NCBI RefSeq assembly: GCF_000023025.1 | Contig: NC_012997.1 | Coordinates: 2,353,125-2,417,124, forward strand | From: Teredinibacter turnerae T7901 | GTDB lineage: Bacteria > Pseudomonadota > Gammaproteobacteria > Pseudomonadales > Cellvibrionaceae | Length of the DNA stretch: 64,000 bases | Direction: 5' to 3' | In this document: piece after piece, positions 852-37,222 of the stretch | Layout: every line of letters begins with the position of its first letter | Numbering within the stretch: the first letter of the stretch is position 1 | Notes under the pieces: generated by a model | The model's input: only the letters and a program-made list of their open reading frames with translations | Told to the model about the DNA's origin: nothing | The model's database searches: none | Translations under genes and position numbers: made by a program

Positions 852-3800
852 ATAGTATTCAGCGTGTGGATTTCACAATATGTGATCGGCTGATGGAAGA
901 TGTAACTGATGATCGGGTTGAATTGCTTGCCCGTGAAAAGCTGCTGAAGCATACGGACAAGATTCTGGCTGATGCGGAAATCTGGTTGGAGCGGTTGGAA
1001 GCTAATAGCCCGAAGGGTGGGTTAGATAGAGGCCCTTCACAAACAAAGCGTTTCGAGAATGTGCCCATTGATACCTTTCATATCAAAGAAATCACTCTTT
1101 CAATAGAAGCTTCCAGTTGGGAAGAATTCGAAGCCGCGTTTATAGACAAGTTCCGATCTGAAATAAAAGATGCTATCGGGTATATCGTTGCGCTCAAGCA
1201 AGGCCGATTCGATGAGGCCGCTTCTAGAGGCTCGCCTTGGGCGAACGGGGCGAACGGGGCGAACGGGGGGCACGCTGTATCGGTAGAGCGGCTTCTAAAG
1301 AATATCTTTAACACCTCTTCGCGCTCCGCTTGGGACGGAAAATTATTTCAGGAACTTGTCGCGCTGGATAACAGCTCGACTGTTTTCTCAGCTTTTAATT
1401 TCATCGATGTTTTAAAGCGGGTGTTACGAAAGCCGGAATCACGTCGACAAGTAGCGGAACTATTTTCTAAGAACCAGCAGGAATGGATTATTAAAAAACT
1501 TGAGCCTGTTCATGCGGACTACGTACTCACTTTTGTCCGCACAGCAGATCAGATGGCTAGTGTCGCCAATAGGCATGAAACGCTAATTCAGGAGGAAACC
1601 ATTTCTCAGCTGGTTCAAGAGACGGAAAAATATGATCGAGATAATTTATCTGGCACTAAACTGACCAGAAATATTGTTGTCGAGTTTACGCTGATTTATC
1701 TGGTATGTGAGCGTGGGAGCCAGTTTAATCGAAAAATGTATATGCGCTCTGTGGTGCGACAACTTGCGCAGAGGAACAATTTAGGCACTGAAAAACTCAG
1801 TCGCTGGTTGTATTCCCTGGTGTCGCAAAGTGAAGCGGATAACACCATTAAATCCGACCTGCTTGAGATTCTTCGTGTTTCCTCGGGTCTAACCGAAAAT
1901 CCTGACACAGGCTTGTACGGCACGGACACGTCGAAACAGCAGCATACGGGTTCAGCGCAGGCTTCTTTAACTACCTCTAAAGCTGATCCAGCAGTGTCTC
2001 GCCTTGATGTGCAGCGAGCACTCAAAAATTTACGGGCGTGGTTTGTTGGTTTGAGTGATGTACATCCCGATCTAAACCTGGCGCAAAGTGATGCTCTCAT
2101 TACCCAATTCGGCTATTTGCTGGCGCAGGCGCCTGACAAGCTAGTGGCAATGATTCGTCAAGTAGTAGACGCACAAGGCAGGGAACGTTTGAAGGCGGTT
2201 TTTACGATATTGCCGCAATCAGTGTTAAGTGAACTCTGCGGCAACCTGAGCCGATCGGTTGCTGGCGAGATACGATATCTGTTACCCGCTATGGTAAAAC
2301 TGCATGATCATTTGTTACCGGGAAAATCCTTTCGTTTCAATGAATTTTTCGTAGAGTGGTTTTTCTGTGATACTAAACTCGGGCGTCAAGATTCTGCATC
2401 TGCGCGCTCCCGGCTGGGAAAACTCTACTTCGATCATTTGACAAACACCCGCTCATTCGGTGGGTCCGAAAAATTCAATAGTCTTTCTGATGTATTAGTG
2501 AAGTTCGCGGAAGACGCCCGCCACAACCAGCCTGCATATTGGGATCTGGCGAGCTTGCTTAACCGCCACCTTACGGATCTAGTGTATTCTGGCACGCAGG
2601 GTGCCACGAGTGAAAATCAGGATTATCCATTGTCCGATACGGATAAACAGCTGTTTAGTCTGTTTGTTGATTCGATACAGCAGGGCGTGTGGCAATTAAC
2701 CGACGACGACTGGGCGCGGTTAAAAGCAGAGCATACTCGGTATTTGTATTCGATGACTCGGGTTCTACTACAAAGTATGACCTATCGTAAGCAGTTTGTT
2801 CATCGTATCCCCGTAGTCGTACAGTTGAATCTGTTGTCGGTGTTAGAACCAGAGAACGATGAGTTTTTGCAGAAAATATGGTCATCTTCGGGTCAGGTAT
2901 CCCAATTAACGCTTTTAGCAGGCTCGAAAAATCCTGGTCCGCTGCCAAAAAAACTTACGTCCTCAGTCTCCGGTCAGAGTGAAAAGGTCTTTTCACTGGT
3001 TAGAGAACTGACAATTAATTTTATTGTGGACCAGCGCGGCAGTGTTTTTAATCGTCGCAGCTTTGCAAGATATTTTTTGCGTTCTTTGTGCCATCATTTT
3101 AATTTGAACTATGTGGACGTGTTGCATTGCATAAGGCTCTTATGTGAGCAGGCCAATTTGCCGCAAGCCCTGGCCGATGAGTGGCGACTCATTGCAGGCG
3201 ATGGTTTAGGGTTAGGGGATCAAAATCACTCGATCGAAACCACCAGCAGATCGGGTCTGCCGCCTATAGCAGAGCAGAAAATGTCAGGGCAGCATTTGCG
3301 CGAGCAATATTCAGCGGAAAATAAATCACCTGTGGGTGAAGAGGAGTATGGCCATCTCGCCGCTAAGGCTGTTGAAACACTGCAACAAATAACCGGTTCG
3401 GGAGCCCTGCCAACGGTAGCTGATTTACACAAAGCGCTGCGTTTTATTGCCGCAGGGCACTATATCTACTTTAAACGGTTTAGCGATTATTGTCGGGCTC
3501 ATCTGCATATGTTGAGTATGATCTGCGATCGTATTGATGGCGACAGTTTAGTGCTATTGGCTCGCTGTTTTATCGGTGCTGGTGGGCTTGAAAGTGCGCG
3601 TACCGGTATGCTTATGGCTGCTTTACAAAGCTATGCGCAGCGCTGTCGTAGCCAACAGATTTTTTATGCGGTGCTGATCGAAGATATATTAGCGCAGGTA
3701 AATCTCAATCTCGAAAGTACCTTGCAAAGGGCTCAAGCTAAAGCTGCCAGTAGCCGATCAAGGATGGATTCGCGTGTTTTACCTGGGCCAAGAACGAAGG

Positions 3801-5002
3801 ATTCGGAGGCGAAGGCCGCTAAACTGACTGCAGCCACCTTGCACAGTTTTAACAGTGGTGACGCCAATCTCAGTGACGGCGAAAAATCTGAAAACGCGTG
3901 GGAGATGGAACATACCCTTTGTGAGGAAAAAATTAAGTCTCTCGCCACGTCACTGTCCGAGGCAGGAAAGCTGGTTTGGGCGGGCGAAGCGGCGCTGCTC
4001 AATTGGGCTTACAGTTACTCGCTCGATAAAATGCGTGTTTTATATCCTGTGCTCCAGTTATTGCATTTGCTAATTAAAGGCTGTGAGAATGCTCCGAAGA
4101 ACAACATTGGTTCGTTAAAATGCAACCAGCTGGTAAGCGAATCCCGCTGGCGCTGTATTGCCTATCATTACTTGGCCCGGCAACTCCTTCATCCAGGCAG
4201 CGTGAGTGTCGATTTGTTCATTCAGCAGGTGCTTTTCCAGGTATTTCGGATTTGGCAACCGAACCCGCGTCAGTTCGAACTAGAACGGTTCGGACAGTAT
4301 TGTAGCCGTCTTATCCATAATCCGGGTTTTCGCATTAGCTCTGTGATACTTCGTGAGACGCAGCAGGTGATCAGCTCTCTAAGCGCGAGTGATCTAGGCT
4401 TGCCCAAGCTAAATGTGGAGGTAGAAGAGCGTGCGAAGGCGGAGGCTGACGTTAAGTCGGGGGCTAATGCACATACGCCATCTATTGTCTCGTACTGTGG
4501 GCTAGTATTACTCGCGCCATATATTCCCGTTTTGCTCAACCGTTTGGGCTACACAAAAGATGATTCAATCATTCAAACACACCAATCTAAGGCCTGTCAG
4601 GTGCTCTTTTATCTGGCGACGGGAGAGCAGGTACTATCTATACCGGGCAGCGAAGAATTGTCTTCGGTGCATACGGGTTTAATCTCCGCCTTATTGGGCA
4701 TACCCCTGCAGGTAAAAGTGTCCTTCGCGCCATTGGCGAGTTCTGAAATTGCCATGTGCGATGAACTGCTGGGTGCGGTTATTCAACATTGGAGTGCAAT
4801 TGGCTCTACCAGTATCGCTGGGCTGAGAGAGACATTTCTTGTACGCGATGGTGCCTTGTTGTGGCGCGAGGAAAAAGGATGGTTGCTGGAGGTTGAAGAG
4901 CGTGGCGTTGATGTATTGATTGACCGGTTGCCGTGGAATTTCAATATTATTAAATTCCCCTTTATGGCGGATGCGATTCACGTGCACTGGCGCAATGATT
5001 GA
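848..5002 (+). CDS. eCIS tape measure protein (CIS_TMP family)
   Basis: Encodes 1384 residues. The GTG start at 848 is set by a strong AAGGAGG at 835-841 with 6-nt spacing. The N-terminal block (about 75-120, 'IDTFHIKEITLSIEASSWEE') and the C-terminal block (about 1215-1380, 'YCGLVLLAPYIPVLLNRLGY', then LFYLATGEQ, LLGAVIQHWSAIGSTS, GLRETFL and LPWNFNIIKFPF) match the conserved ends of contractile injection system tape measure proteins (Afp14-like). The middle is long, variable and mostly helical, as expected for a length ruler. In related systems this protein sets tail tube length. A 9-bp unit repeated three times at about 1240-1266 encodes ANG-ANG-ANG. It lies between the baseplate-like gene and the AAA+ ATPase, the usual eCIS order. 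Confidence 0.82.
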   Translation: MNSIQRVDFTICDRLMEDVTDDRVELLAREKLLKHTDKILADAEIWLERLEANSPKGGLDRGPSQTKRFENVPIDTFHIKEITLSIEASSWEEFEAAFIDKFRSEIKDAIGYIVALKQGRFDEAASRGSPWANGANGANGGHAVSVERLLKNIFNTSSRSAWDGKLFQELVALDNSSTVFSAFNFIDVLKRVLRKPESRRQVAELFSKNQQEWIIKKLEPVHADYVLTFVRTADQMASVANRHETLIQEETISQLVQETEKYDRDNLSGTKLTRNIVVEFTLIYLVCERGSQFNRKMYMRSVVRQLAQRNNLGTEKLSRWLYSLVSQSEADNTIKSDLLEILRVSSGLTENPDTGLYGTDTSKQQHTGSAQASLTTSKADPAVSRLDVQRALKNLRAWFVGLSDVHPDLNLAQSDALITQFGYLLAQAPDKLVAMIRQVVDAQGRERLKAVFTILPQSVLSELCGNLSRSVAGEIRYLLPAMVKLHDHLLPGKSFRFNEFFVEWFFCDTKLGRQDSASARSRLGKLYFDHLTNTRSFGGSEKFNSLSDVLVKFAEDARHNQPAYWDLASLLNRHLTDLVYSGTQGATSENQDYPLSDTDKQLFSLFVDSIQQGVWQLTDDDWARLKAEHTRYLYSMTRVLLQSMTYRKQFVHRIPVVVQLNLLSVLEPENDEFLQKIWSSSGQVSQLTLLAGSKNPGPLPKKLTSSVSGQSEKVFSLVRELTINFIVDQRGSVFNRRSFARYFLRSLCHHFNLNYVDVLHCIRLLCEQANLPQALADEWRLIAGDGLGLGDQNHSIETTSRSGLPPIAEQKMSGQHLREQYSAENKSPVGEEEYGHLAAKAVETLQQITGSGALPTVADLHKALRFIAAGHYIYFKRFSDYCRAHLHMLSMICDRIDGDSLVLLARCFIGAGGLESARTGMLMAALQSYAQRCRSQQIFYAVLIEDILAQVNLNLESTLQRAQAKAASSRSRMDSRVLPGPRTKDSEAKAAKLTAATLHSFNSGDANLSDGEKSENAWEMEHTLCEEKIKSLATSLSEAGKLVWAGEAALLNWAYSYSLDKMRVLYPVLQLLHLLIKGCENAPKNNIGSLKCNQLVSESRWRCIAYHYLARQLLHPGSVSVDLFIQQVLFQVFRIWQPNPRQFELERFGQYCSRLIHNPGFRISSVILRETQQVISSLSASDLGLPKLNVEVEERAKAEADVKSGANAHTPSIVSYCGLVLLAPYIPVLLNRLGYTKDDSIIQTHQSKACQVLFYLATGEQVLSIPGSEELSSVHTGLISALLGIPLQVKVSFAPLASSEIAMCDELLGAVIQHWSAIGSTSIAGLRETFLVRDGALLWREEKGWLLEVEERGVDVLIDRLPWNFNIIKFPFMADAIHVHWRND

Positions 5003-5073
5003 TTGCTTTGTGGTATCCCTGCTGACAAAGCCAACTCGCTTGGATCAAAGCTTTGTACTCAACGGAAAAAACT

Positions 5074-6501
5074 ATGTTTGCAGACAAAGATGGCTACATT
5101 CGCTTGAATAGCGTTGCTTATGCGGAGCAGCCTCTTGCTGATATCGCAATACGCACTCAGGCCGAGCGCAATGCATTGGTGTTGGAACGCGAGCTAGCCT
5201 GGTTTTCCCGTGTGTTGGAAACACGGTTAGCGCTGTATTTTTGCAATGAATGTGAATATACCTCCATTGCCGAAATCGAACCGCCGGATATTACCTACTG
5301 TAGCTCTAGCTACGGCGACGTTGTTCGTGAATTTGGTATGGGCAGTCGCGAGCGACTCCTGTTTATGCTGGCGCTGGCACCTCATTTACGGCCACAGGCG
5401 CTAAATTTATTGCTTATTCGTGATCCCCAGATAGATCGCCCGTACAGTGAATTTGGTGGATGGCGAGGCAAAGTGCACGGCGGATTCCTGCCAACAGGTG
5501 AAACAGCAGCATTCCTTATTGCAGGGGATAAACTCGGTGAGCGCCTGGATGTTATCGCGATGCTGGAAAAGGACCACTATTTTACTCGATGCGGATTATT
5601 GCGCGTGCATTCGGCCGAATTTGACGAAGCATATTTGTCAGCTGCGATTAGTGTTTCCAATGAATATTTTCACAAGGTAACCACGGGCGTTTGTGAAAAG
5701 CCGGACTTCAGCATCCATTTCCCGGCCACACATTTAACAACCAATCTTAGCTGGGACGACCTGGTACTTGCAGAACGAACGCTCGACGATATAGAACACA
5801 TGCGCACCTGGCTGCTTCACCAGAAGCACATCATGCAAAACCTGGGTTTGGAGAAATCGATAAAGCCCGGTTACCGTGCGCTGTTCTACGGGCCGCCTGG
5901 TACGGGAAAAACGCTGACCGCGTGTCTGTTGGGAAAGGCTATGACGGCAGATGTTTATCGTGTGGACTTGGCTGCGGTGGTTTCTAAGTACATCGGTGAA
6001 ACCGAAAAAAACCTGGAAGCCATTTTTACCCAGGCAGAAAACCGCAACTGGATACTATTTTTCGACGAAGCGGACGCGCTGTTCGGTAAGCGTACGGAAA
6101 CGAGTAATTCTAACGATCGGCATTCTAATCAAGAGGTGGCCTACCTGTTGCAACGAATAGAATGCTTTCCTGGGGTTGTCGTGCTGGCTACAAATTTACG
6201 TGGCAATATTGATGATGCGTTTTTTCGCCGGTTTCAGTCGGCCATCTATTTTCCTATGCCCGATTTTAATCAGCGACTGGCGTTATGGGAAAATGCTTTT
6301 ATTAATGCGGATTGCCTGGATGCGTCGGTGGATCTCAAACTGTTGGCAAAAGAGTACGAAATCGCGGGCGGTTCGATTGTCAATGTGGTGCGCTATGCGG
6401 CCATTCGCATGGTTAAACGGGGTAATGGGAGGTTAACAACCGAAGACTTGGAGGAGGGCGTTGCGAAGGAGATTAAAAAACAGGGGAGGGTGTTGGCTTG
6501 A
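5074..6501 (+). CDS. eCIS AAA+ ATPase (Afp15-like)
   Basis: Encodes 475 residues from the ATG at 5074. A TTG at 5053 in frame is possible, but GGAAAA just before 5074 favours the ATG. An N-terminal domain of ~230 residues of unknown fold precedes one AAA+ module. The module shows Walker A GPPGTGKT (about 273-280), Walker B ILFFDEADALFG (about 324-335), sensor 1 VVLATNLRGNID and a double-arginine finger region FFRRF. In Afp/PVC-type particles this ATPase is conserved beside the tape measure gene and is thought to assist assembly or disassembly of the sheath. Its stop overlaps the TTG start of the next gene (TTGA). Confidence 0.85.
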   Translation: MFADKDGYIRLNSVAYAEQPLADIAIRTQAERNALVLERELAWFSRVLETRLALYFCNECEYTSIAEIEPPDITYCSSSYGDVVREFGMGSRERLLFMLALAPHLRPQALNLLLIRDPQIDRPYSEFGGWRGKVHGGFLPTGETAAFLIAGDKLGERLDVIAMLEKDHYFTRCGLLRVHSAEFDEAYLSAAISVSNEYFHKVTTGVCEKPDFSIHFPATHLTTNLSWDDLVLAERTLDDIEHMRTWLLHQKHIMQNLGLEKSIKPGYRALFYGPPGTGKTLTACLLGKAMTADVYRVDLAAVVSKYIGETEKNLEAIFTQAENRNWILFFDEADALFGKRTETSNSNDRHSNQEVAYLLQRIECFPGVVVLATNLRGNIDDAFFRRFQSAIYFPMPDFNQRLALWENAFINADCLDASVDLKLLAKEYEIAGGSIVNVVRYAAIRMVKRGNGRLTTEDLEEGVAKEIKKQGRVLA

Positions 6502-9119
6502 CCCGCTCACTACTTAATACGCGTCGTTTCGGATTGCTGTCGTTTGTTTTTCTTGGCTTGAGCACAGTATATTTTACAGCAAACGTGTCAGCAGCGGTGC
6601 CTGTTTCTGCTGTGAGCCTTAATGCTGGCACATCAGCTGGAAGTTCTGTTGCTACACCTGCGGAGCAAGGTACGCAGAAAGCTATGCAGAAAGAAATCAG
6701 CCCCATACAGCCAATAATGCTGTTGCCTCGTGATGTTACAATGTTAAAGCTTAATAAAGCGGTTCGCGAAATAGCCGTAAGCACCGCACAAAATCCGAGT
6801 GTCAATCAGTTTGTTACCCTTGATAGTGCACTGGCGTATTTGTCTGCCGAACTTGAAAAAATTGATGGTTTCAGCCCGGAGATACTCGACAGCGTTACGC
6901 TAAAAATACGAAGTTTTATCACGCAACAGCATTATCTCGCCGTATCGCCACAAACGATTTCTGAACTCGGCCAACAGAATCTGTCGCTCGCAGCGCAGGC
7001 GTTGCTGCCAGCTGTCGGGCAGCCAGTGCCGGCGCAGTATTTTTCACAACAATTGCGGCGGAATCTGGAGCAAGCCTCTGTCCAAAAAGAAGATACTGAT
7101 CGTGCCCTTTCTATAGCTGTTCGAACACCTCAGGAATCGCTCCGGTACGCGGTAGTCAATGATGCTGCCGCATTTGATGCGGTGTTCCCGTCGGTAGACG
7201 CATCCGTGAGTGATTGCCTGAGTAACTTGGCGAGTACCGCGTATCCGTCGGTAAATGGTTTGCGCTTGGCGGTGGCGAACCTCTTGTACCAGATGCGTGA
7301 GGTTGGCTTAGCGGCGGTACAAAACAACAACACGGCCGCGAATGACGGCACCGATACGCCTGGTATTGAGATTGAATGCCCATTGTCGGACGACATAGTT
7401 AAACCTTTTCAAGAGGGCGATCTCGCGGTAGATAACTCGGATTCAGGCAGCGAGGACGGATCGGGTAATTATGCTTGCACGGTGCTTACTGAATCAGAAA
7501 TTGGTCCGGATCTGCTGCTCGCAAACTCGCCGGAATCCTGCGCTATCTGTCGTACCAAAACCTGTCACAGTGGTACTGACTATGTGAGCCAGGTACAAAA
7601 CGCCGTGTTGTCTATGGCGGTCAAGCCGTTCTTGCGCAGCGAATTGAGCAAAATTGAATTATCGACCTTGCCGGGATGTAGTGAATGCGCCTTACCACTT
7701 AAAGGTACAACTATCGGGTTTTATCCGTACTGGCTGGCGTCGGAAGCCTACCAACAAATAGGCTTCCCCTTGATTAATCCCGGCTACATAAATTTTGGAG
7801 TGTTCAGCCGGGTAGCCTATTTCGCATTACCATTGGGGGCAGACAACCGCGTCAGCGACCAACTCCATTGGGCCAGCTCACGATTATTTGTGAACTACCT
7901 GCGGGAGTTACAACGTTTTAATGTGCAGCGCGATATTGTTTTGGTGGCGCAAAACTGGAAATCCTGGCGAGGTACCGATGATATTCGGTCCTATGCGGAG
8001 AGCCATTACAAAACGTTGCAGGTTATACAGGAGCAAGCTGCTCACTGGGGCGGAATTAATGGTGTTATTGTCTATTTTAATGACTACGGTCGCGGTGACG
8101 ACGCGAACGCAATACTCACTTATATGTCGCGGCTCTATGACGTAATACAGCAAGACGATTCACTTGTGAAGCTGGAGCTCAGGTTGCTGCTTGATATTCA
8201 GGGCTTGGAGAATCAGAAAACCCATGTTGGCGCCAGCGTTGAATTGTCACAGAGCTACTTTGCCAAATTGTCCGAATTGTTTATGGTGGCTTCGCGCGAC
8301 GAGCTACTCAAGTCCACGGCGTCCGAGCTTGAGAAGGGACATGAACCTATTGCGAAAGACCTGATTGATCAGACGGTAGCCGGCTCGCAAACACCCAAAG
8401 TGAAAAATATACTGGTGTTTCTCAACGAACCGTCCAGTGAGCAAAAAAAACGCCTGCGGATGCAATTGGAAAATGAATTTAAAGGCGAGGCCAGGGTAGA
8501 AGCACAACAAAAAATTATTCCGGTGCTGGGGCGGCTAACCCTTGGTGAAGAAAGTGCAGAGCCGCATCGGCAATTTGTTGATGATCTGGCGTATTTAAAA
8601 TATAACTTTGGCGGTATCGGTTTATGGAACCTGCCACTCACCCCGCAAACAGATAAAGGCAAGGCTGACATTGAAAACCCAGTGATGAGCATTTTCGATT
8701 TTACCCTAAAGCTAGGGTATGGAAATACTGAAGTGGGGTATGTTGATACGGAAAACATGGGCTGGTTGGCGGCCGCTATGCATTATCCTGCTGCAGCGGA
8801 TGTATTCTCTATTTGCGCTTACGCCTGCCCAAATCGAATTACTGTGTTGTGGATGTTAGTTGTGTTGTTTGTTTCTAATTTGATTTTTTACGCGCTGTAC
8901 AACACACACTGCCCAACACGAAAGATTATGAAAGCCCACCCCGTAACCTTTTTACTCTTGCGTTGGAGTCCGGTGTTATTGGCTCTACTGGTATTGGGTT
9001 GTAACCCGCTGTTTTACCCCTATGCTACCCCCTTGCTGGCCGTTGGTGCTCTATCCATGCTGGCGTTTTCCGGCTACCGCAGCTACCTGAAAATGGCGGA
9101 CAAGCTGGAACGTGCTTAA
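6498..9119 (+). CDS. exported GH18-fold-like protein with C-terminal membrane helices
   Basis: Encodes 873 residues. It starts at a TTG overlapping the previous stop. An N-terminal signal sequence (RRFGLLSFVFLGLSTVYF, about 9-26) is followed by a low-complexity Ala/Ser/Gln region. At about 400 a domain begins with TIGFYPYWLA and continues with INFGVFSRVAYF, 'INGVIVYFND' and ends near FGGIGLWNLP (about 710), the strand pattern of a GH18 (chitinase-like) barrel. The usual DxxDxDxE catalytic signature is not evident, so it may bind rather than cut glycans. A small Cys cluster (CAICRTKTC, CSECA) precedes the barrel. Three hydrophobic helices end the protein (about 775-865). Its place in the eCIS operon suggests envelope anchoring or peptidoglycan handling for the particle. 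Family assignment is tentative. Confidence 0.6.
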   Translation: MTRSLLNTRRFGLLSFVFLGLSTVYFTANVSAAVPVSAVSLNAGTSAGSSVATPAEQGTQKAMQKEISPIQPIMLLPRDVTMLKLNKAVREIAVSTAQNPSVNQFVTLDSALAYLSAELEKIDGFSPEILDSVTLKIRSFITQQHYLAVSPQTISELGQQNLSLAAQALLPAVGQPVPAQYFSQQLRRNLEQASVQKEDTDRALSIAVRTPQESLRYAVVNDAAAFDAVFPSVDASVSDCLSNLASTAYPSVNGLRLAVANLLYQMREVGLAAVQNNNTAANDGTDTPGIEIECPLSDDIVKPFQEGDLAVDNSDSGSEDGSGNYACTVLTESEIGPDLLLANSPESCAICRTKTCHSGTDYVSQVQNAVLSMAVKPFLRSELSKIELSTLPGCSECALPLKGTTIGFYPYWLASEAYQQIGFPLINPGYINFGVFSRVAYFALPLGADNRVSDQLHWASSRLFVNYLRELQRFNVQRDIVLVAQNWKSWRGTDDIRSYAESHYKTLQVIQEQAAHWGGINGVIVYFNDYGRGDDANAILTYMSRLYDVIQQDDSLVKLELRLLLDIQGLENQKTHVGASVELSQSYFAKLSELFMVASRDELLKSTASELEKGHEPIAKDLIDQTVAGSQTPKVKNILVFLNEPSSEQKKRLRMQLENEFKGEARVEAQQKIIPVLGRLTLGEESAEPHRQFVDDLAYLKYNFGGIGLWNLPLTPQTDKGKADIENPVMSIFDFTLKLGYGNTEVGYVDTENMGWLAAAMHYPAAADVFSICAYACPNRITVLWMLVVLFVSNLIFYALYNTHCPTRKIMKAHPVTFLLLRWSPVLLALLVLGCNPLFYPYATPLLAVGALSMLAFSGYRSYLKMADKLERA

Positions 9120-9138
9120 CCTAAAAAGGCGCAATTTT

Positions 9139-9672
9139 ATGACTAAACAATATGTGAATAATCCAACTGAACACGCCGATCTATCCGGGCGCGCTGGTAC
9201 GGCGCAATTTCGCGATAACCGCGCGCTACAAAAAGCTTCACCCGATGAAGAGGAGTTAACACAAGGTAAATTTATTAACGCGCCGATGCAGCGCGACGCG
9301 CTTGAGGAAGAGGAGTTAACTCAGGGTAAATTCCATACTGCGCTGCAAAGAAAGGAAAATAAAACAGGGCTGCCAGACAATCTTAAGACGGGGGTCGAAA
9401 CCTTATCTGGCTTGAGTATGGATGGGGTACGAGTGCACCAAAATTCCAGCAAGCCAGCACAAGTTGGCGCCCACGCGTTTGCGCAAGGCACGGATATTCA
9501 TGTCGCTCCCGGCCAGATGAAGCATTTGCCACACGAAGCCTGGCATGTAGTGCAGCAGGCCCAAGGTCGTGTGCCGGTTACAACCACAGTTGATGGCATG
9601 CCCGTGAACGATAATCCGTCACTGGAAAAAGAAGCCGATGTCATGGGAGAAAAGGCGAAGAATCAAGGTTAA
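9139..9672 (+). CDS. DUF4157 HExxH protein (eCIS-associated)
   Basis: Encodes 177 residues. The ATG at 9139 is chosen because AAAAAGG lies 8 nt upstream; a TTG-type start at 9112 would overlap the previous gene. Residues about 85-150 form a DUF4157 domain: LSGLSMDGVRVH, then GAHAFAQGTDIHVAPG and LPHEAWHVVQQ, with the HEAWH zinc-metalloprotease-like motif at 132-136. The N-terminal half contains two copies of EEELTQGKF (37-45 and 57-65), encoded by a near-identical DNA repeat. DUF4157 domains are frequent at the N-terminus of eCIS cargo and in eCIS loci. Here the domain is nearly alone, which suggests a processing protease or a loading/leader module rather than a complete toxin. Confidence 0.8.
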   Translation: MTKQYVNNPTEHADLSGRAGTAQFRDNRALQKASPDEEELTQGKFINAPMQRDALEEEELTQGKFHTALQRKENKTGLPDNLKTGVETLSGLSMDGVRVHQNSSKPAQVGAHAFAQGTDIHVAPGQMKHLPHEAWHVVQQAQGRVPVTTTVDGMPVNDNPSLEKEADVMGEKAKNQG

Positions 9673-26736: not shown

Positions 26737-26760
26737 CGGGCTAATACTAAGGAGCATCAT

Positions 26761-29074: not shown

Positions 29075-29363
29075 TAGCATTATATGGAAAAATCTGCATC
29101 GGCGAAGTCTGAGTTGTCATGGATTTGCTCCGGTATCCGGCTGTTCTATGTATGGCCGCCTATAGCGCTTAGTGGGGTGTCCTTTGTTCGTTCGATTGGC
29201 TGTTGTGGTGCAGTGGGCGGCCCATAGTTCGCCTAATAAAAGCTTGTTATCTCCTTATAAACATATTTCATTTCGCAGTTCACAGATAAAACTTCAAGAT
29301 GTAGGCTCAAAATCAAGGCGTTGATGCGGCTTTAGTCAATCGCGCTAACCAAGGGTCGACACG

Positions 29364-30488
29364 ATGAAGCTCTGGGCTACCTCCATTGGCGTTACTTGCC
29401 TTCTCGTTGTTACTTTAGTGCTGCAATGGCACGAAATGGATAAGTACGACATAAATAAAGCGCAACAGCTGACGAATATGACGGAGGTCACTCGCTATCT
29501 TGAGGATAATCACAGCGATTTGATGGCTGACCCGGCGGGGGAGAGAATAATTACGGGCTTGTTTATTCAGTCTCTCAAGTTCTTCGATTCCAGTGAGGTT
29601 AATATCACCGGTTATATCTGGCAACACTTTCCGCTGGCACGATATGCGGGAATACCCGACTCGGAGATAAGCGCAGATTTCATCCTGCCGGAGCAGGTGA
29701 ACTCTGGCAGTGATATAAGCCCGACATTAACTTATAGAGAAAAGTCAAATTACGGCGAAGTATTGGGTTGGTACTTCGAGGCGACCTTAAAGCAGGGATT
29801 CGATTACTCTCACTACCCGTTCGATCATAAAACAGTCTGGATGCGACTTTGGCCTAAAGCCTTTTCCAAAAACGTTGTTCTGGTACCCGATTTTTCAGCG
29901 TATAAATCTACCTCCATGGATGCCATTTTCGGCATTGAGCAAGGTATTGTTCTAGGTGCCTGGACGCGCGCCAATACCTATTTTAATTACCAGACGAGCA
30001 GCTACGATACTAATTTCGGAATCCCCAACTATGTCGGTCAAACGGATTTCCCGGAATTGTATTACAACTTCGTGATCAAGAGGCGTTTCGACAACGCATT
30101 TACCGTACACTTGCTCCCCTTGTTTCTTGTTGCCGTGTTGCTTTTCGCAGCATTGTTAACGACTAGCGAAGAGCATGAAAAAAGTGGGCTTTTGGGATTT
30201 AATATTTCGGGATTTCTTGGCATGTGTTCGGCGTTGTTCTTTGTGGTGCTTATCGCACATATTCAATTACGTGAACAGTTCGCTGGCGCAGGGGTAGTCT
30301 ATCTTGAATATTATTACATTGTTATGTACGTGGTTCTCGTTGCCAGTACGGTAAATACCTATTTGTTTGCCATCCGCCCTAGAGCAATAGAGAAATGGAT
30401 AACATATAAAGATAATATTATTCCTAAAGTGTGTTACTGGCCTTCCATTATGATCGCGTTGAACCTCATAACGCTCTTCTTTTTGTAG
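29364..30488 (+). CDS. pentameric ligand-gated ion channel homologue (GLIC-like)
   Basis: Encodes 374 residues. An N-terminal hydrophobic segment (about 4-22) targets it to the membrane. The ectodomain contains VNITGYIWQHFP and the pro-loop signature FDYSHYPFDHKTVWM with Tyr-Pro-Phe-Asp at 151-154, the motif also found in GLIC. The pre-M1 stretch ELYYNFVIKRRF leads into M1 (about 246-268, with LLP), then M2 (about 278-300, ending VVLIAHIQ), M3 (about 314-336) and M4 (about 355-374). Spacing and motifs match prokaryotic pentameric ligand-gated channels along the whole length. The first ~50 residues after the signal anchor are extra. It heads a same-strand series of sensor and transport proteins. 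Ligand and ion selectivity are unknown. Confidence 0.8.
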   Translation: MKLWATSIGVTCLLVVTLVLQWHEMDKYDINKAQQLTNMTEVTRYLEDNHSDLMADPAGERIITGLFIQSLKFFDSSEVNITGYIWQHFPLARYAGIPDSEISADFILPEQVNSGSDISPTLTYREKSNYGEVLGWYFEATLKQGFDYSHYPFDHKTVWMRLWPKAFSKNVVLVPDFSAYKSTSMDAIFGIEQGIVLGAWTRANTYFNYQTSSYDTNFGIPNYVGQTDFPELYYNFVIKRRFDNAFTVHLLPLFLVAVLLFAALLTTSEEHEKSGLLGFNISGFLGMCSALFFVVLIAHIQLREQFAGAGVVYLEYYYIVMYVVLVASTVNTYLFAIRPRAIEKWITYKDNIIPKVCYWPSIMIALNLITLFFL

Positions 30489-30567
30489 TTCCGTACATTG
30501 GCAATTCTGGATAAAACAAGGCAAACAGCCTTTCAAAATCGTGTAACTCGAGCTGTTGGAGGCCGTT

Positions 30568-32478
30568 TTGGGTAGTGATGTGCGCGTCGCTGGTGACGAG
30601 ACTGTTTATGGTTTTTCTGCGAGTCAAGATGGGTCGAGCAGGGTGTGTCAATTTTTATTGGATTGCCCGCTGTTTGCTGCAAGTACCCTTGAGGACAAAG
30701 CGCGCAGCGTTGGACTGGCGTACATCAAAGAGCTTAAATCGGGCGAAGTCCTGTTTCACAAAGGAGACCGTGCGAAAACCCTGTTTTATTTATTGGATGG
30801 TCGTCTGGCGTTAGAAGGCGAGCCGGATAAAGACACCTTGGGTGCGGGTTTTTACGGTGAAGAGTCGGTGATGGGTATGCCGACCTATATAGCAGGACTA
30901 GTGGCAAGTAGGGCTTGCACAGTACTCGTTATGCCACGCGCGTTTATTGCACTTCACAGTCGATATGCCCAGTTCTACCAAGGAATTGTAGACCATTTTC
31001 ATCGCCAGCTATCTGGAGAGCTCGTCATAAGCGAACCTTCCGGCTCACTTGCCTTGGCCCGTGTTGATAACGGCATGCTAGTGGGTTGGGCGCTGTCGCT
31101 TTGTATTCCGTTGGCCGTCTTTCTGGGGTTGCACTCACTAAAATCAGAGGGGCTGCTGGATCTTTCCGACAATGGTATCACTTATAGCGCCATCTTAGGC
31201 ACCTGCGCGGTTATGTGGATGTTTCGGCTATTGCCGGATTATATAACCGGTTTGTTTTCCATTCTCAGCGCTGTATTGATGGGCATTGCTGCGCCTGAAA
31301 CCGCCTTTAGCGGTTTTTCGAGCGACAGTTTTTTTTTAGCGATGGGCATCCTGGGGCTGAGTGTGGTTATTAAAAGTTCCGGCCTGAGCTACAGGCTGTT
31401 CATCGCACTCCTGCGTATTGGGCCTGCGCGCAAGTTCTGGTACAACTTAAGCTTTTTCACCGTAGGCGGGTTGCTAACGCCATTTATTCCAACCACTAAC
31501 GGTCGCGTAACACTAGTCGCGAATCTTCTGCCTGAAATACTCACGGGCGTGCCAGAGAAAATTCGCCGTGCTGAAGGGCCTAGACTAAAAATGAATTTAC
31601 TACATGGAGCCTCGTTGCTCTCTCCATTTTTTGTTAGTAGTAAATCGGTCAACTTTATTGTTCTAGGTATGCTGCCACTGCAGGTTCAAGAGTCTTTTCA
31701 GTGGGTGAGTTGGTTTATTGCCGGGAGTGCGGTGTGTGGGGTTATGCTTGCACTGTATCTACTGCTTAATCTCGTGATGTTTCGCAATCGCGTGAGTTTT
31801 GTGGTACCTAAATCTATCGTTCGCTCGCAACAGCAGCTACTTGGGCGACTGACCGGGCAGGAGTGGTCGGGTCTGCTTGGCTTGGCAGTATTGTTGTTTG
31901 GCTTGATGTTTTCTTCTTTGCACAAGTTGGATATTGCTTGGGTTGCCATGGCTATATTGTTTTATCTGATGATGTTTGGCTTCCTGGGACAAAAGCAGTT
32001 TAGGGCGTCTATCGATTGGAGCTTTCTTGTTTTTCTCGGTTCTTTGATCGGTATGGTCAATGTAATCCGTGAGACAGGCATTCATCTTTGGTTAAGTGAT
32101 CAGCTTAATTTTCTAGTTGTGCTTATGGATAGCTCACCAGGAATTTTTGTGGTGGTTTTGGCAATAAGTATTGCCCTAGTGCGAATAGTGCTGCCTATTA
32201 ATGCAACTGTGATCGTTTTTGCGACACTGTTGATTCCCTTGGCGTCAAATGTAAGTTTGAACCCGTGGATAATCGGCTTTCTGATTTTACTTTTTTCAGA
32301 AAGCTTTATTTTACCTTATCAAGCGTCTTACTACTCCTTGTTCTTGGAGTTGACTTCTTCTGTCGAAGTCGGATCGCAGAAAAAAATATTCGTGTTCCAC
32401 TGTGCAATTTGGCTAATTAAACTAAGCGCTGTTTATGCGAGTATTCCTTTTTGGGTTCACCTAGGGTTGCTGGCGTGA
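30568..32478 (+). CDS. cyclic-nucleotide-binding domain fused to SLC13/DASS-type permease
   Basis: Encodes 636 residues. The TTG at 30568 is chosen because GGAGG (30558-30562) sits 5 nt upstream; another TTG at 30556 overlaps that site. Residues ~25-150 form a CRP-like jelly roll (LKSGEVLFHKGDRAKTLFYL, then GFYGEESVMG and SRACTVLVM), with the GE...SRA elements of a phosphate-binding cassette. The rest has about 12 membrane segments with two re-entrant-like motifs, FIPTTNGRVTL and LPINATVIV, in the positions where DASS carriers have SNT motifs. A cyclic nucleotide, or a related ligand, may gate uptake of an organic anion. The next gene overlaps its stop (GTGA). Confidence 0.75.
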   Translation: MGSDVRVAGDETVYGFSASQDGSSRVCQFLLDCPLFAASTLEDKARSVGLAYIKELKSGEVLFHKGDRAKTLFYLLDGRLALEGEPDKDTLGAGFYGEESVMGMPTYIAGLVASRACTVLVMPRAFIALHSRYAQFYQGIVDHFHRQLSGELVISEPSGSLALARVDNGMLVGWALSLCIPLAVFLGLHSLKSEGLLDLSDNGITYSAILGTCAVMWMFRLLPDYITGLFSILSAVLMGIAAPETAFSGFSSDSFFLAMGILGLSVVIKSSGLSYRLFIALLRIGPARKFWYNLSFFTVGGLLTPFIPTTNGRVTLVANLLPEILTGVPEKIRRAEGPRLKMNLLHGASLLSPFFVSSKSVNFIVLGMLPLQVQESFQWVSWFIAGSAVCGVMLALYLLLNLVMFRNRVSFVVPKSIVRSQQQLLGRLTGQEWSGLLGLAVLLFGLMFSSLHKLDIAWVAMAILFYLMMFGFLGQKQFRASIDWSFLVFLGSLIGMVNVIRETGIHLWLSDQLNFLVVLMDSSPGIFVVVLAISIALVRIVLPINATVIVFATLLIPLASNVSLNPWIIGFLILLFSESFILPYQASYYSLFLELTSSVEVGSQKKIFVFHCAIWLIKLSAVYASIPFWVHLGLLA

Positions 32479-33596
32479 AAGTGTTTTTGCATAGGGGGTC
32501 CATGTTGGTTTTTTTACTGGTGACTGTATCACTAGTGCTTTTGAACAGCGCGAAACAAAAGCGAATTTTCATTCTACACAGCTACAATACAGATTATGCT
32601 TGGACACGCGGGTTGAATTTTGGTCTCGAGAAGGGGATGCGCGAGCTTTCACACGGTCGTGTTAATTACGATGTTCGATATTATTATATGAATGCGAAGA
32701 ATATTCCATTTGAAACGGACGCGGACGTGCGGGGGCCGGTGAAGCAAGCGGTTCAGGCAATAGAAATGTATCAACCTGATGTGATTATCGCTTTTGATGA
32801 TATTGCCCAAAAATTTGTTGTGGCGCCCAACTATATAAATCGACCAGGTGTCGATGTCGTGTTTTCAGGTGTAAACGGCGATGAGACTCGCTACTGTAGC
32901 TCAACTCGGGGTGATGAAAAAGTCTGTTATAACACGGCAGTAAATGTGGTGGGTACACTTGAGCGCATACCTGTTGCGAGCGTAGTTGATATTATTCATT
33001 TCTTGCGGTTAGAGAACCCGCAGACATTGGCGTCCGCTAAGCATGTCCACTTTCTGCTCGATGAATCGATTACAGCCACTCAGGATGCGCTCTATTTGGA
33101 GAACCAGGATTGGCAGGATATGGCATTTAGCGTCTCCCCCCCCATTGATACCTACGAAGACTGGCAAAACTACATTCTAGGAATCAACCAGGAAAATGTC
33201 GACTTCCTGCTGGTTGATGGGTATCGCAAGTTGCGTGTTGACGAGAGCGTCACAACGCATAATACCGCCGAGCAACGTATATACGCCGATCCGCTTAAGG
33301 TTGCCCGATGGACCGAAGCAAATTCCAATATCCCTATTATTGGCCTGAACGCATTTTCTAGCGAAGACGGGTTTATGCTTTCGGTTGGGGTTTCCGCATC
33401 TGCACTTGGTTACAAGGCTTTTGTCAAAGCGTCCAATTTGATTATGGATGATCATCCGATTAACTCGCTAGAACGTGTCGATATTTCTGATCAGTATGTG
33501 GTAGCCATAAATCAGACGGCGATGGAACAACGAGGTTTAAAAATTCCCAATATGTTGCAGGTGTTTGCTCGTGCCACTGAACATTTTTACGAGTAA
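32475..33596 (+). CDS. periplasmic binding-protein-like protein, ABC substrate-binding fold
   Basis: Encodes about 373 residues from the GTG at 32475 overlapping the previous stop; the ATG at 32502 behind GGGGG is an alternative. A hydrophobic N-terminus (MLVFLLVTVSLVLL) serves as signal or anchor. The domain starts with KRIFILHSYNTDYAWTRGLN and continues with VDVVFSGVNGDE and NSNIPIIGLNAFSSEDGFML. This pattern fits ABC-type uncharacterised periplasmic components (PF04392-like), also used as sensor domains of histidine kinases. There is no ABC ATPase or permease beside it, so it is more likely a ligand-sensing partner of the neighbouring channels than part of an importer. Confidence 0.65.
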   Translation: MKVFLHRGSMLVFLLVTVSLVLLNSAKQKRIFILHSYNTDYAWTRGLNFGLEKGMRELSHGRVNYDVRYYYMNAKNIPFETDADVRGPVKQAVQAIEMYQPDVIIAFDDIAQKFVVAPNYINRPGVDVVFSGVNGDETRYCSSTRGDEKVCYNTAVNVVGTLERIPVASVVDIIHFLRLENPQTLASAKHVHFLLDESITATQDALYLENQDWQDMAFSVSPPIDTYEDWQNYILGINQENVDFLLVDGYRKLRVDESVTTHNTAEQRIYADPLKVARWTEANSNIPIIGLNAFSSEDGFMLSVGVSASALGYKAFVKASNLIMDDHPINSLERVDISDQYVVAINQTAMEQRGLKIPNMLQVFARATEHFYE

Positions 33597-36204
33597 ATGG
33601 CTATGGCCATTGACCCTACGCCAGCTCTTTTGGTTTTCAGTATTGCTGATTGCTGTTGGTGAATCGCTTTTTTCGTCTTACTCTCCAGAAGTTTCTAACA
33701 GTTCTCTTTTACCGTTGAAGATTGCCCTGGTTGGCCCGATGCGGCTGGACCGAATGTCACTCTCTCAGCCAGATACCGTTGATAAGGGCAGGGTAATGCG
33801 TGAGAGTGTACTCCTATATGAGCAGCAGTTTAACGCGCAGGTTAAACCTAACGAGCGGCCGCTACAAATAACGGTTTACAACGACCGTGATAGCGATGAT
33901 CCGGAAGTTTTAGCCAGACTGGCTGAAAAGATAAAAAAAGACGGCAATATTGCCGTTATTGGTCACCGCTCCTCCCGTGTTAGTAAGCCCGCTGCGCGCG
34001 AATACGCGAAACTTGGCATACCAATGGTGGGAGGCTCGGCTACGGCGTCCGGCATCACTGAAAACAATCCCTGGGCATTTCGCGTAGTGCCGGACAATCG
34101 CTTACAAGCTCATATGGCATTGCGTTATTTTCGGAGTTCAGGGTTGTTTGATACGGCCTTAAACGTGGCCGTACTGTTTAGTAACGACGAGTATGGCGTG
34201 TCCATGAATCAGGCATTTGTGGAGAGGGCTGGGCAACTGTCTCGAGAATTGAATATGACGCTAAGCAGCTACGCTGTCGAGCTGCCAGAAGATGGTGAAT
34301 ACTCAGTAAAACAAGCGCGAAAGATGGTCGACCGACTTCCGGCACATAGTGGAATTAACGCAATATTTCTAGCGGTACATGATGTTGAGGGCCGCTATCT
34401 GATAAAAGCGCTGCGCGATAATCCAAACACTGCGGGGCTGCCGGTTGTTGCCAGCGCGTCTATTGGCAAGCAAGGGTTTGCAAAGTATTTTAGTGAGATT
34501 TTGGGGGTCAATTCGCTTCCCGTTGATCATTATCTCGACGGAGTGTTTGCCCTTAGCCCAATGATATACGACATCGCCGGCCAAAGCGCACAAAATTTCT
34601 CTCTAGCGTATTACGCTGCTTACGGCCGCCGACCAGACTCGTCGGCTGCCAGTTACTTCGACGCTATTCACGCTGTGGTGAGCGCGGCTGCCGGTGTTCA
34701 GGATAACCTTCCTATCGCGCAGCAGCGAATAACTTTGCGCGATAGTTTGGCGGAGCTGGACGACCCCCAGCGGCCCATCCAAGGACTCTCTAGCGATTTT
34801 TTCTTTGATGAATTGGGCAATGTCGTGCGCCCTCTTATGGTGGGACAGTTCAGTGGTGAGCGGTTTATCTCAGCGCCGATACAATTGGGCTATGATCGTG
34901 GAGTGCTATATAAAACCCACGTAGTCTATACCGCAATTAAAGTAAAAGAGATAACAGATGTTTCGTTAGAAAAAAATACCTTTAGGGCGGTATTCGAAGT
35001 GTGGTTTAGGGGAGTAGGCGGCATTGATATTGATTCGGTTAGTTTTGTTAATAGTGTTGACGCTGAGGGGCTTGATGAGCGTGAACGTGTGTCTGAAAAA
35101 TTTATGCAAGCTCCTCTGGGATATACGCTGAACAAGGCGCAAGTACCGATTACTTACAAGCGCTATACGGCCGAGCGCACCTTCCTCTTAACGGAGCAGC
35201 GCGGGCGTGGTGCCTTTGGTGAGTATATAGCGGCAATTGAGTTTCGACATAATAATCTGCCCCGTAAAAATATTATTTATGCTACTGACTTTCGCGGTGT
35301 CGATACCAATTGGGGCGAGGGGCTTGAAATGGACGGCTGGCAATTGGTGCAGGAATCAGCGTTTCAGTCGAGTTTTGTACGTGAAACTTTGGGTGATCCT
35401 GAGCTACTGAGCGCGTCGACTAAGTCGCGTACGTCCTCACTGTATAGCACCGTATATCTACTTAAATCCCGCTCGTTTTCATTGCGTGGCGTTATACCGC
35501 CCAGTTTGGAAAAAATGATATTTCAAGTCAGCTTACTTGGCTGGCTGCTTGTCGCGTTCGTCTTGAGTTGGCTCCCGCTAAAGCGGCTCCTTTGGTTGCG
35601 CAGTATTGTTTACGCATTCATTTTACTTACTCTGGAGCCTTTGATATTGGCTAAATCCGTCGAAATGTTGCCGATGTTTCATACCTCTGTGATCTCTCGA
35701 TCTTTCGATATTGCCTGGTGGGTACTACTTGCGTATACCTTGGCTCAGGGAATCAACAACTATATTTGGGATATGCTCGATAGAAAGGCTCGTGTATTGA
35801 AATCCGAATCAGCTCTGGCGGCGACCGGGATTCCTACAATTTTACGTACGCTCACCAGTTGGTTTTGTTTTACACTTTGTGGCTTTGGTGTTATACGTTT
35901 TGTATTTGACATGGAAATTACACATTTGTTGGCGACGTCTGGCTTACTGACATTTATTGCTGGACTAGCATTGCAGGAAAATTTAACGGATTTGTTTTCT
36001 GGCTTAATTCTAAATATCGATAAACCTTTTTCAATCGGCGATAAAATAACTGTCAACTCCGAAATTTGCGGCACGGTAGTCAATATGAGTTGGAGGTTCA
36101 CCTCACTGGTAACCGACGATAATGAAATGATCGCGCTACCCAACAGTATGCTGACCAGCGGCACAGTCGGCCGACCGCTGGAAGCGAGCCTGCCGAGTCT
36201 TTGA
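33565..36204 (+). CDS. LIVBP-type binding domain + pLGIC-like ectodomain + MscS channel fusion
   Basis: Encodes up to 879 residues. No ATG is in frame near the 5' end; TTG 33565, GTG 33571 and TTG 33610 are possible, and the first two overlap the previous gene. After an N-terminal helix, residues ~50-420 form a Leu/Ile/Val-binding-protein fold (KIALVGPMRL, IAVIGHRSS, GIPMVGGSATASGI, VAVLFSNDEYG). Residues ~450-640 resemble a ligand-gated channel ectodomain: VVYTAIKVKEITDVS, then FRAVFEVWFRG, a beta-rich block, and SLYSTVYLLKSRSF entering a helix with VIPP. Membrane helices follow, and an MscS pore/beta module ends the protein (LLTFIAGLALQENLTD, DKPFSIGDKITV, IALPNS). The usual MscS C-terminal cage domain is missing. 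It probably couples amino-acid-like ligand sensing to ion or solute efflux. Confidence 0.75.
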   Translation: MLVPLNIFTSKWLWPLTLRQLFWFSVLLIAVGESLFSSYSPEVSNSSLLPLKIALVGPMRLDRMSLSQPDTVDKGRVMRESVLLYEQQFNAQVKPNERPLQITVYNDRDSDDPEVLARLAEKIKKDGNIAVIGHRSSRVSKPAAREYAKLGIPMVGGSATASGITENNPWAFRVVPDNRLQAHMALRYFRSSGLFDTALNVAVLFSNDEYGVSMNQAFVERAGQLSRELNMTLSSYAVELPEDGEYSVKQARKMVDRLPAHSGINAIFLAVHDVEGRYLIKALRDNPNTAGLPVVASASIGKQGFAKYFSEILGVNSLPVDHYLDGVFALSPMIYDIAGQSAQNFSLAYYAAYGRRPDSSAASYFDAIHAVVSAAAGVQDNLPIAQQRITLRDSLAELDDPQRPIQGLSSDFFFDELGNVVRPLMVGQFSGERFISAPIQLGYDRGVLYKTHVVYTAIKVKEITDVSLEKNTFRAVFEVWFRGVGGIDIDSVSFVNSVDAEGLDERERVSEKFMQAPLGYTLNKAQVPITYKRYTAERTFLLTEQRGRGAFGEYIAAIEFRHNNLPRKNIIYATDFRGVDTNWGEGLEMDGWQLVQESAFQSSFVRETLGDPELLSASTKSRTSSLYSTVYLLKSRSFSLRGVIPPSLEKMIFQVSLLGWLLVAFVLSWLPLKRLLWLRSIVYAFILLTLEPLILAKSVEMLPMFHTSVISRSFDIAWWVLLAYTLAQGINNYIWDMLDRKARVLKSESALAATGIPTILRTLTSWFCFTLCGFGVIRFVFDMEITHLLATSGLLTFIAGLALQENLTDLFSGLILNIDKPFSIGDKITVNSEICGTVVNMSWRFTSLVTDDNEMIALPNSMLTSGTVGRPLEASLPSL

Positions 36205-36325: not shown

Positions 36326-37222
36326 TCACGCAACATTTTCCGAAAGTAAGTCGCTACCGCTGTTAAATGAGAGCGCCAAATCCTGGTACCGTCTATCGTA
36401 TTTCGTTTGTACGCCGTGGTGCAATTCAAAGTAAACGCTCAGTTGCATCGGAAAATCACAGATTGTTAGGTAGGGTAATCCATGGTTGATCGCGCTCGAT
36501 TTGGGTATTAGGGCGATGCCCTGTTCTGATTTCACATAGTTTGGAATCCAATCGTCACAACAACTACTGCATGTGGCTTTAATAGTGAGACCTTCCGCTT
36601 GTATGCGTTCGCAAAGTAACAGCGACGAGTCGCAGTGATCTCTAAACAGAATTCGCTGATGTTCCAGGTCGTTCAAAAAAAGGTTTTCGCGATTTAAGTA
36701 CTCATGTGCGAAGTCAAAAACGATCACAAACGGTTCTTGATGGATGGTGTCGATGAGATTGGAATTGCCTGAGTGAATTCGGCTAGCGAATATAAGATCC
36801 AGTTCGTGGTGGCGCATTTTCTCTTCCAGTTCGGGGGCGCTGCACTCTAAAAACGTAAAGTCGAGGTCACTGTTGAGGTGCCTATAGTTGTCCAATAAGC
36901 GACATATTAGGCTGAACGATAGATTGTGTTGGAATCCAATGCGTAGAAATTCCGCTTGTTGTTCCAGTATACGGCTAGCTTCTTCTTTGGTGCGGCGTGC
37001 ATTAGTATATATATCGACAAAGTTCGGTAATAGCAGGCGTCCCAGATGAGAGAGTTCGACTGAGTTCTTGGTTCGGCATAGAAGCTCACCACCGATGATC
37101 GACTCCAATTTCTTAATCCCTTTAGTCAGCGCTGGTTGAGATACACAGCATTGTTCGGCTGCTCTCGTGAAATTCAGGGTTTCGCTAACAGCGATAAAAT
37201 ATTTAATTTGCGACATTTCCAT
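36326..37222 (-). CDS. LysR family transcriptional regulator
   Basis: Encodes 298 residues. It starts with MEMSQIKYFIAVSETLNFTR and a standard LysR helix-turn-helix (AAEQCCVSQPALTKGIKKLE), followed by an effector-binding domain of normal size. Three clustered cysteines (TCSSCCDDW, ~215-222) in the effector domain are unusual and could sense redox or metal. It is convergent with the channel operon, separated by 121 bp, and lies just downstream of a small minus-strand frame. The target cannot be told from the sequence. Confidence 0.88.
   Translation of the reverse strand: MEMSQIKYFIAVSETLNFTRAAEQCCVSQPALTKGIKKLESIIGGELLCRTKNSVELSHLGRLLLPNFVDIYTNARRTKEEASRILEQQAEFLRIGFQHNLSFSLICRLLDNYRHLNSDLDFTFLECSAPELEEKMRHHELDLIFASRIHSGNSNLIDTIHQEPFVIVFDFAHEYLNRENLFLNDLEHQRILFRDHCDSSLLLCERIQAEGLTIKATCSSCCDDWIPNYVKSEQGIALIPKSSAINHGLPYLTICDFPMQLSVYFELHHGVQTKYDRRYQDLALSFNSGSDLLSENVA

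Follow-up and report, generated by a model that had tools for sequence, protein, structure and literature searches.

A window of 64,000 nucleotides from the genome of Teredinibacter turnerae T7901 (contig NC_012997.1) harbors, at positions 29364-36204, a cluster of four open reading frames (ORFs) on the + strand (Table 1). Gene 1 encodes a stand-alone homologue of the pentameric ligand-gated ion channels (pLGICs). Gene 2 joins a cyclic nucleotide monophosphate (cNMP)-binding-family domain to an SLC13-type permease, and gene 3 encodes a periplasmic substrate-binding protein devoid of an ABC partner. Gene 4 is a chimeric channel, in which a type I periplasmic binding protein (PBP-I) domain and a pLGIC-type ectodomain are followed by an MscS pore. 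The ORFs of genes 2 and 3, as well as those of genes 3 and 4, overlap, and a gap of 67 bp separates genes 1 and 2. The start of gene 3 is likely the GTG at 32475, overlapping the gene 2 stop by 4 bp, because the ORF of its orthologue in genome G083 (start in locus L031) shows a 4-base overlap (genomes and loci are given by G and L numbers). The original prediction proposed four same-strand genes encoding a GLIC-like channel, a cNMP-domain permease, a lone binding protein, and a binding-domain/ectodomain/MscS fusion. These assignments are borne out by the data below, which go beyond them in identifying the ectodomain of the fusion as pLGIC-type. The absence of kinase, response regulator, and chemotaxis genes, also proposed, holds for the annotated neighbours (25443-28686 and the LysR-type gene).

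Table 1. Features of the window, in window coordinates
Feature	Position	Strand	Basis or remarks
Gene 1: stand-alone pLGIC-like channel, 374 aa	29364..30488	+	AlphaFold model, Foldseek, conserved columns
Gene 2: degenerate cNMP-binding domain and DASS/SLC13-type permease	30556..32478	+	Domains at ~30727-30942 and ~31096-32328
Gene 3: periplasmic substrate-binding protein, ABC_sub_bind type, no ABC partner	32475..33596	+	Mechanical ORF from 32451
Gene 4: chimeric channel, 879 aa	33565..36204	+	N-terminal helix, PBP-I domain, pLGIC-type ectodomain, MscS pore and β-domain
Gene 4, type I periplasmic binding domain	33787..34851	+	Peripla_BP_6, 2.6e-15
Gene 4, pLGIC-type ectodomain	34909..35508	+	hhalign; β-rich in model; without Pro-loop Pro/Asp and pre-M1 Arg
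Gene 4, MscS transmembrane/pore helices and β-domain	35674..36168	+	PF00924 (MS_channel_2nd), 6.3e-15; alignment; model helices within 704-819
LysR-type regulator	36326..37222	-	Convergent with cluster; homologue in fetched stretches of G023, G083, G087
eCIS (extracellular contractile injection system) genes: CIS_TMP, AAA ATPase, 873-aa protein without Pfam match, eCIS_core	848..9672	+	Pfam, synteny, CIS_TMP scans

Gene 4 does not possess the four-helix pore of pLGICs, in place of which it carries an MscS pore region. Its ectodomain is, as judged by profile comparison, homologous to the ligand-binding β-sandwich of pLGICs. Using hhalign, the MscS-fused ectodomains (14 rows) align with those of proteins fusing a periplasmic binding domain to a complete pLGIC (PBP-pLGICs, 3 rows) at 99.95% (E 1.4e-37, 187 of 197 columns), and with gene 1 ectodomains at 86% (5e-6), compared to 0.8% (0.066) for an unrelated control. 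Among PDB sequences, the PBP-pLGIC ectodomains match GLIC and ELIC (best 5.8e-5), and the full PBP-pLGIC profile matches GABA-A (2.7e-15) and glycine receptor chains (2e-13). Furthermore, Neur_chan_memb scores above the Pfam cut-off in locus L164.

The chimera belongs to a widespread family. Two ectodomain patterns were used to scan genome_contigs, in which 84,980 species are represented by a single genome each, yielding 182 stretches (132 confirmed, 80 kept) and 74 loci; the patterns were derived from four rows of one family-level group, and the counts of architectures and taxa lean towards the kin of these rows. The loci, many of them metagenome-assembled, belong to several phyla, with members in Thiotrichaceae, Desulfobacterales, Leptospirales, Anaerolineae, Calditrichota, SAR324, Gallionellaceae, and others. 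In the Desulfamplus class, the ectodomain is detected at 1e-10 in 18 of 140 genomes, all pore types pooled. Binding domain, ectodomain, and MscS are found together in 80 of the 88 ectodomain ORFs retrieved, the domains being assigned with profiles built for this analysis. These comprise 46 complete ORFs with a C-terminal cNMP domain, 32 complete ORFs devoid of it, and one truncated form of each. The others are an ectodomain-MscS-cNMP protein (1), binding domain-ectodomain fusions with a pLGIC pore (3) or without any pore (2), and isolated ectodomains (2); the partial match L055 was left out of this set. In total, 48 of the 88 ORFs display the cNMP domain, with the motif GE..R.A in 45 of these 48, and intracellular cyclic nucleotide is therefore a plausible input for many chimeras. 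At 11 loci, a chimera without the cNMP domain is encoded directly upstream of one possessing it, which suggests two subunits assembling as hetero-oligomers. These tandem pairs are located at L101, L103, L104, L105, L108, L109, L113, L115, L120, L121, and L136.

The ectodomain tree (48 rows, root drawn at midpoint) places the 36 MscS chimeras on one side of a branch supported at 100/99, and six PBP-pLGIC rows between the chimeras and the gene 1 relatives. Because the chimeras form a single side of this branch, beside the PBP-pLGIC fusions, the simplest reading is that the PBP-pLGIC arrangement probably came first and was followed by a single exchange of the pore. According to Jaiteh et al. (PMC4795631), the pLGIC superfamily has [F/Y]PxD as its signature, in which no residue but the Pro is absolutely conserved in the superfamily and the Asp forms a salt bridge with the pre-M1 Arg. 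The Pro of this Pro-loop is present in 17 of 17 pLGIC rows versus 9 of 95 chimera rows, the Asp in 16 of 17 versus 8 of 95, and the pre-M1 Arg in 17 of 17 versus 0 of 95, the 95 rows including four duplicates (L100/L073, L111/L075, L116/L074, and L157/L076). Gene 4 of the window has an Ala at the Pro column. Since all three counts fall in the chimera rows, the residues linking head and pore in pLGICs seem to have been released after the pore change.

Gene 2 matches cNMP_binding (PF00027, 1.4e-9) and Na_sulph_symp (PF00939, 9.7e-22), as well as the NCBIfam dass subfamily at 4.2e-28, a value below the cut-off of that model. Its cNMP domain was compared with the cassette motif, including the phosphate-binding Arg expected in a working cyclic-nucleotide site. 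Tyr occupies this position in 9 of 9 rows, and because the canonical Arg is absent, intracellular cyclic nucleotide as a signal acting via gene 2, a part of the original prediction, is not supported by the sequences. The candidate role of gene 2 as a canonical cyclic-nucleotide sensor is dropped for the same reason. SNT-type motifs (SNT/SNS/SND) are expected in both repeats of DASS carriers. Of 9 gene 2 rows, 7 lack them altogether, and the other 2 display a single one, at offset 595, so that the motifs do not occupy the DASS positions. Gene 3 remains below the ABC_sub_bind cut-off (PF04392, 0.0021, 17.8 bits versus 25.9), and its relative in L126 passes it (1.7e-9, 37.8 bits). A pattern scan of genome_contigs with P0003 gave 9 matches, none of them confirmed. 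Downstream of weaker gene 3 relatives in L200, L201, L204, L205, and L206, large ORFs of 623-912 aa display hydrophobic N-termini and may encode membrane sensors.

Genes 2, 3, and 4 are conserved together. Among 120 genomes of the family, they are found at strong scores in exactly the same 4, all of one genus, out of 8 genomes sampled in that genus. They are contiguous and in identical order in all 4, with identities of 41-94% to the window proteins across these genomes. At weaker scores, 4 further family genomes have a gene 3 match (1e-5), and G006 has one to gene 4. Outside the genus, the order chimera-gene 2-gene 3, the chimera being devoid of the cNMP domain, occurs in Thermodesulfobacteriota at L126, L131, L134, L143, and L173 (5 of the 74 loci), plus L194. 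The proteins of these cassettes share 29-32% identity with those of the window, and the gene 2 and gene 3 ORFs overlap in all of them except L173. In the Desulfamplus class, gene 3 relatives are present at 1e-30 in 15 of 140 genomes. The clustering of genes 2-3-4 looks functional, because they share the same 4 of 120 genomes and because the cassettes recur in Thermodesulfobacteriota. Their chance adjacency is rejected by the co-occurrence and the cross-phylum cassettes.

Gene 1 behaves differently. Of the 4 genus genomes that possess genes 2-3-4, 3 have gene 1 beside them, a methyltransferase ORF intervening in G083, and G078 holds genes 2-4 with no gene 1 match. None of 5 Thermodesulfobacteriota cassette genomes shows a gene 1 match at 1e-10, and the candidacy of gene 1 as a fixed cassette member is not supported. 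The conserved neighbourhood by which the proposal of one pathway was to be checked is therefore seen for genes 2-3-4, which are adjacent in relatives both in the genus and in Thermodesulfobacteriota, but not for gene 1, which is linked more to eCIS loci than to genes 2-4.

The reading that we favour, with moderate confidence, is that genes 2-3-4 form a co-inherited chemosensing and transport cassette, with a chimeric ligand-gated channel at its core. For ligand gating, coupling direction, conducted ions, stoichiometry, transport substrate, and protein-protein contact, we infer the following scheme. A solute would close the PBP-I domain of gene 4, and this movement would be passed via the pLGIC-type β-sandwich to the transmembrane helices of the MscS pore. 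The pore would then open, allowing ions or small osmolytes to pass. Gene 3 may bring the ligand to its membrane partners, or sense a second ligand for them. Gene 2 may transport an organic or sulfur anion, its nucleotide-binding-like domain acting without the canonical phosphate contact. Gene 1 would be a separate pLGIC.

Several observations weigh against this cassette reading. The gene 4 product has no match to the MscS C-terminal domain (PF21082), a domain present in L073, L077, and L152. Gene 4 and its three genus orthologues stop soon after the β-domain; a truncation by frameshift is rejected, as the orthologues in G023, G083, and G078 end at the same region. In a structural search with the whole gene 4 model, all 50 rows listed are of binding-protein type and cover residues ~41-523; kainate receptor chains are among them, aligned over the binding protein-like part. 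A search of PDB sequences with A8 found nothing. Concerning the cassette, 69 of the 74 chimera-family loci have no gene 2 or gene 3 homologue in the stretch examined, some stretches being short. In the Desulfamplus class, six genomes score below 1e-90 for gene 3: two contain the full cassette, one has genes 2 and 3 at a contig end, one has a gene 2 devoid of its cNMP part with gene 3 and without a chimera, and two have gene 3 alone. In full-length chimera trees, the cassettes of the genus group apart from those of Thermodesulfobacteriota, with an approximately unbiased (AU) test p of 0.0396 against one cassette clade (23-row subset); the ectodomain tree joins them weakly (82/75). Whether the cassette is one old unit or the product of two assemblies, either history would argue for a joint function of genes 2-3-4.

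A different role of gene 4 can be drawn from the same features. It might be a tension-gated osmotic release valve, in which the binding domain and the β-sandwich only tune or anchor the channel, and no small ligand opens it. The conservation of the MscS pore helices and β-domain agrees with a valve, and so does the absence of the head-pore signature, by which the pLGIC coupling route would be gone. We consider it unlikely.

Gene 1 is a pLGIC homologue, and by this a relative of the receptors of animal nerves, as indicated by its conserved residues and predicted structure; ion conduction is only predicted. No Pfam domain matches it. The AlphaFold model, computed from an 11-row alignment, has a middling pLDDT of 72 and a pTM of 0.64, and displays an N-terminal helix, a β-sandwich, and four transmembrane helices. 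A YPFD motif (P152, D154), the pre-M1 R240, and the M1 P252 lie in conserved columns. Foldseek matches this model to pLGICs of the PDB with a probability of 1.00, TM-scores of 0.4-0.6, and root-mean-square deviations (rmsd) of 6-15 Å, the best matches being a glycine receptor (4.8e-12) and sTeLIC (2.7e-11, rmsd 6.3). Against PDB sequences, P0001 found nothing, and A2 retrieved no more than two matches, a GABA-A pi chain (0.02) and a lectin (0.48). Gene 1 matches at 1e-5 are found in 11 of the 120 family genomes, the T. turnerae genome counted. The genus contains the stand-alone form; L034, L035, L036, L037, L039, and L040 encode longer proteins, of which the C-terminus provides the match. Cache-type domains are detected by Pfam in these relatives above the cut-off in L034, L036, and L039, below it in L037, and not in L040. 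A binding-protein gene adjoins the gene 1 relative in L034, L035, L036, L037, and L038. L094, with no gene 1 match in its ORF list, and L095, with a weak one, were left out of the gene 1 set. In Candidatus Halobeggiatoa (L130), a stand-alone gene 1 homologue (546-1667, 40%) lies one gene upstream of a chimera (3871-7242), and the genome contains five matches to the gene 1 profile.

Gene 1 displays a conserved linkage to eCIS genes. CIS_TMP is present in 20 of the 120 family genomes and 10 of 369 genomes of the class. With the T. turnerae genome excluded, gene 1 relatives are found in 7 of 19 CIS_TMP genomes versus 3 of 100 others in the family (p 8e-5), and in 6 of 9 versus 4 of 359 in the class (p 5e-9), p values that overstate independence, the genomes being related. 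The relative lies 4.8-9 kb from CIS_TMP in nine genomes (G083, G087, G096, G098, G320, G325, G190, G361, and G247). Larger distances are seen in T. turnerae and G023 (24-25 kb), in G032 (2.3 Mb), and in G442 (186 kb), where the relative adjoins an eCIS_core gene; in G021, both genes are present on different contigs. Gene 1 relatives are located between eCIS genes in L034, L035, L085, and L091, and beside them in L031, L033, L089, L092, and L093. In L036, L037, L039, L040, L086, L088, and L090, no eCIS homologue is found in the stretch examined. Gene 1 has probably joined the cluster in this genus, coming from an eCIS-linked lineage. An eCIS locus can also include a chimera, as seen with a distant relative at L041 (7490-10414, G006), 8.9 kb from CIS_TMP.

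From this linkage, one may propose that gene 1, possibly together with genes 2-4, serves as a sensory front end of the eCIS, converting an external ligand into a change of membrane potential that would control eCIS production or release. The enrichment in both samples and the short distances in nine genomes point in this direction, as do the distant gene 4 relative of G006 and the G083 locus, where eCIS homologues and genes 1-4 are all on one strand. However, gene 1 is far from CIS_TMP in the window (24 kb), G442, and G032, seven gene 1-type loci are without an eCIS homologue in the stretch examined, and G078 has genes 2-4 and no CIS_TMP match. Furthermore, the p values overstate independence, and linkage says nothing on mechanism. 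Such a front end appears doubtful.

Alternatively, gene 4 could be a non-conducting sensor regulating the gene 2 permease, to which gene 3 would deliver substrate, thereby forming an uptake system with built-in sensing. Genes 2 and 3 are indeed the most closely associated pair: their ORFs overlap or abut in most of the loci inspected, and L198 has both without a chimera. A 2-hydroxyacid dehydrogenase (Pfam) is encoded after the L126 cassette, at 14732-15712, and ORFs with N-termini resembling that of this enzyme follow the cassettes of L131, L143, L173, and L194, which may hint at a transported and metabolised substrate. Yet 69 of 74 chimera-family loci show no gene 2 or gene 3 neighbour in the stretch examined, and the pore helix region is conserved, making a non-conducting gene 4 distinctly improbable. 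Finally, the view that nothing but proximity on one strand connects the four genes is very hard to sustain: the distribution of gene 1 does differ from that of genes 2-4, but the shared genomes, order, and identities of the latter, and their recurrence in another phylum, largely refute it for genes 2-3-4.

Compared to known systems, gene 1 resembles the core of the prokaryotic pLGICs (ART-LGICs), and the Cache-type fusions of its relatives are found there as well. For bacterial pLGICs, PBP-I and Cache/MCP-N fusions, PBP-II neighbours, and a role in chemotaxis or as chemoreceptors were put forward in 2004 by Tasneem et al. (PMC549065). The term "undescribed" in the original prediction is therefore too strong for the general idea. 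The arrangement PBP-I, ectodomain, and pLGIC-type pore is found in L081, L083, L164, L169, and L170, and by alignment only in L084. In contrast, gene 4 keeps the head with another pore and without the Pro-loop signature; "MscS" or "mechanosensitive" have 0 occurrences in the accessible text of PMC549065. DeCLIC also carries an accessory N-terminal domain on a pLGIC, but is described as a pLGIC, and no MscS pore is mentioned in the accessible parts of its reports (PMC9897478, PMC12664993). In the open-licence literature, subscription papers and databases being outside the scope, no record of a pLGIC head on an MscS pore and no report of a pLGIC-eCIS linkage were found among the papers listed.

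With the MscS superfamily, gene 4 shares the pore helices and the β-domain, to which it adds the large periplasmic PBP-I domain and pLGIC-type ectodomain, and it ends soon after the β-domain. The C-terminal cNMP domain of many chimera ORFs is a further likeness to this superfamily, whose members with cyclic-nucleotide domains are the bCNG channels. Gene 2 resembles DASS/SLC13 permeases by Pfam and differs from them by its N-terminal cNMP-like domain and by SNT-type motifs that are absent or located at an unexpected place. As for eCIS loci, the window has CIS_TMP, AAA, and eCIS_core genes upstream of the cluster, and gene 1 relatives share such loci. Relatives of the 873-aa protein of the window recur in eCIS loci of related genomes. 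A 3229-aa ORF that apparently encodes a signal peptide occupies 14276-23965 on the - strand, in the interval separating the cluster from the eCIS genes. A further stretch of ~270 bp (~28799-29075), between an acyltransferase gene and gene 1, appears on visual inspection to be bounded by inverted terminal repeats and might be a miniature mobile element.

Taken together, these features allow a tentative joint picture. A Cys-loop-type head, already joined to a periplasmic binding domain, may have been put, probably once, on an MscS pore, giving rise to a large family of ligand-gated and often also cyclic nucleotide-gated pores, and pLGICs may be a recurrent sensory part of eCIS loci. As pLGICs are pentamers and MscS is a heptamer, either the head would be seven-fold or the pore five-fold. 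The chimera would represent a natural experiment in channel modularity, since it carries a Cys-loop-type head on another pore, without the residues thought to couple both in nerve receptors. It makes the transmission of gating by such heads, and their assembly outside five-fold symmetry, directly testable. Gene 4 is also a concrete ligand-gated candidate in the MscS superfamily, and genes 2-3-4 a conserved three-gene cassette, while the gene 1 linkage provides a lead towards injection systems with dedicated channel-type sensors.

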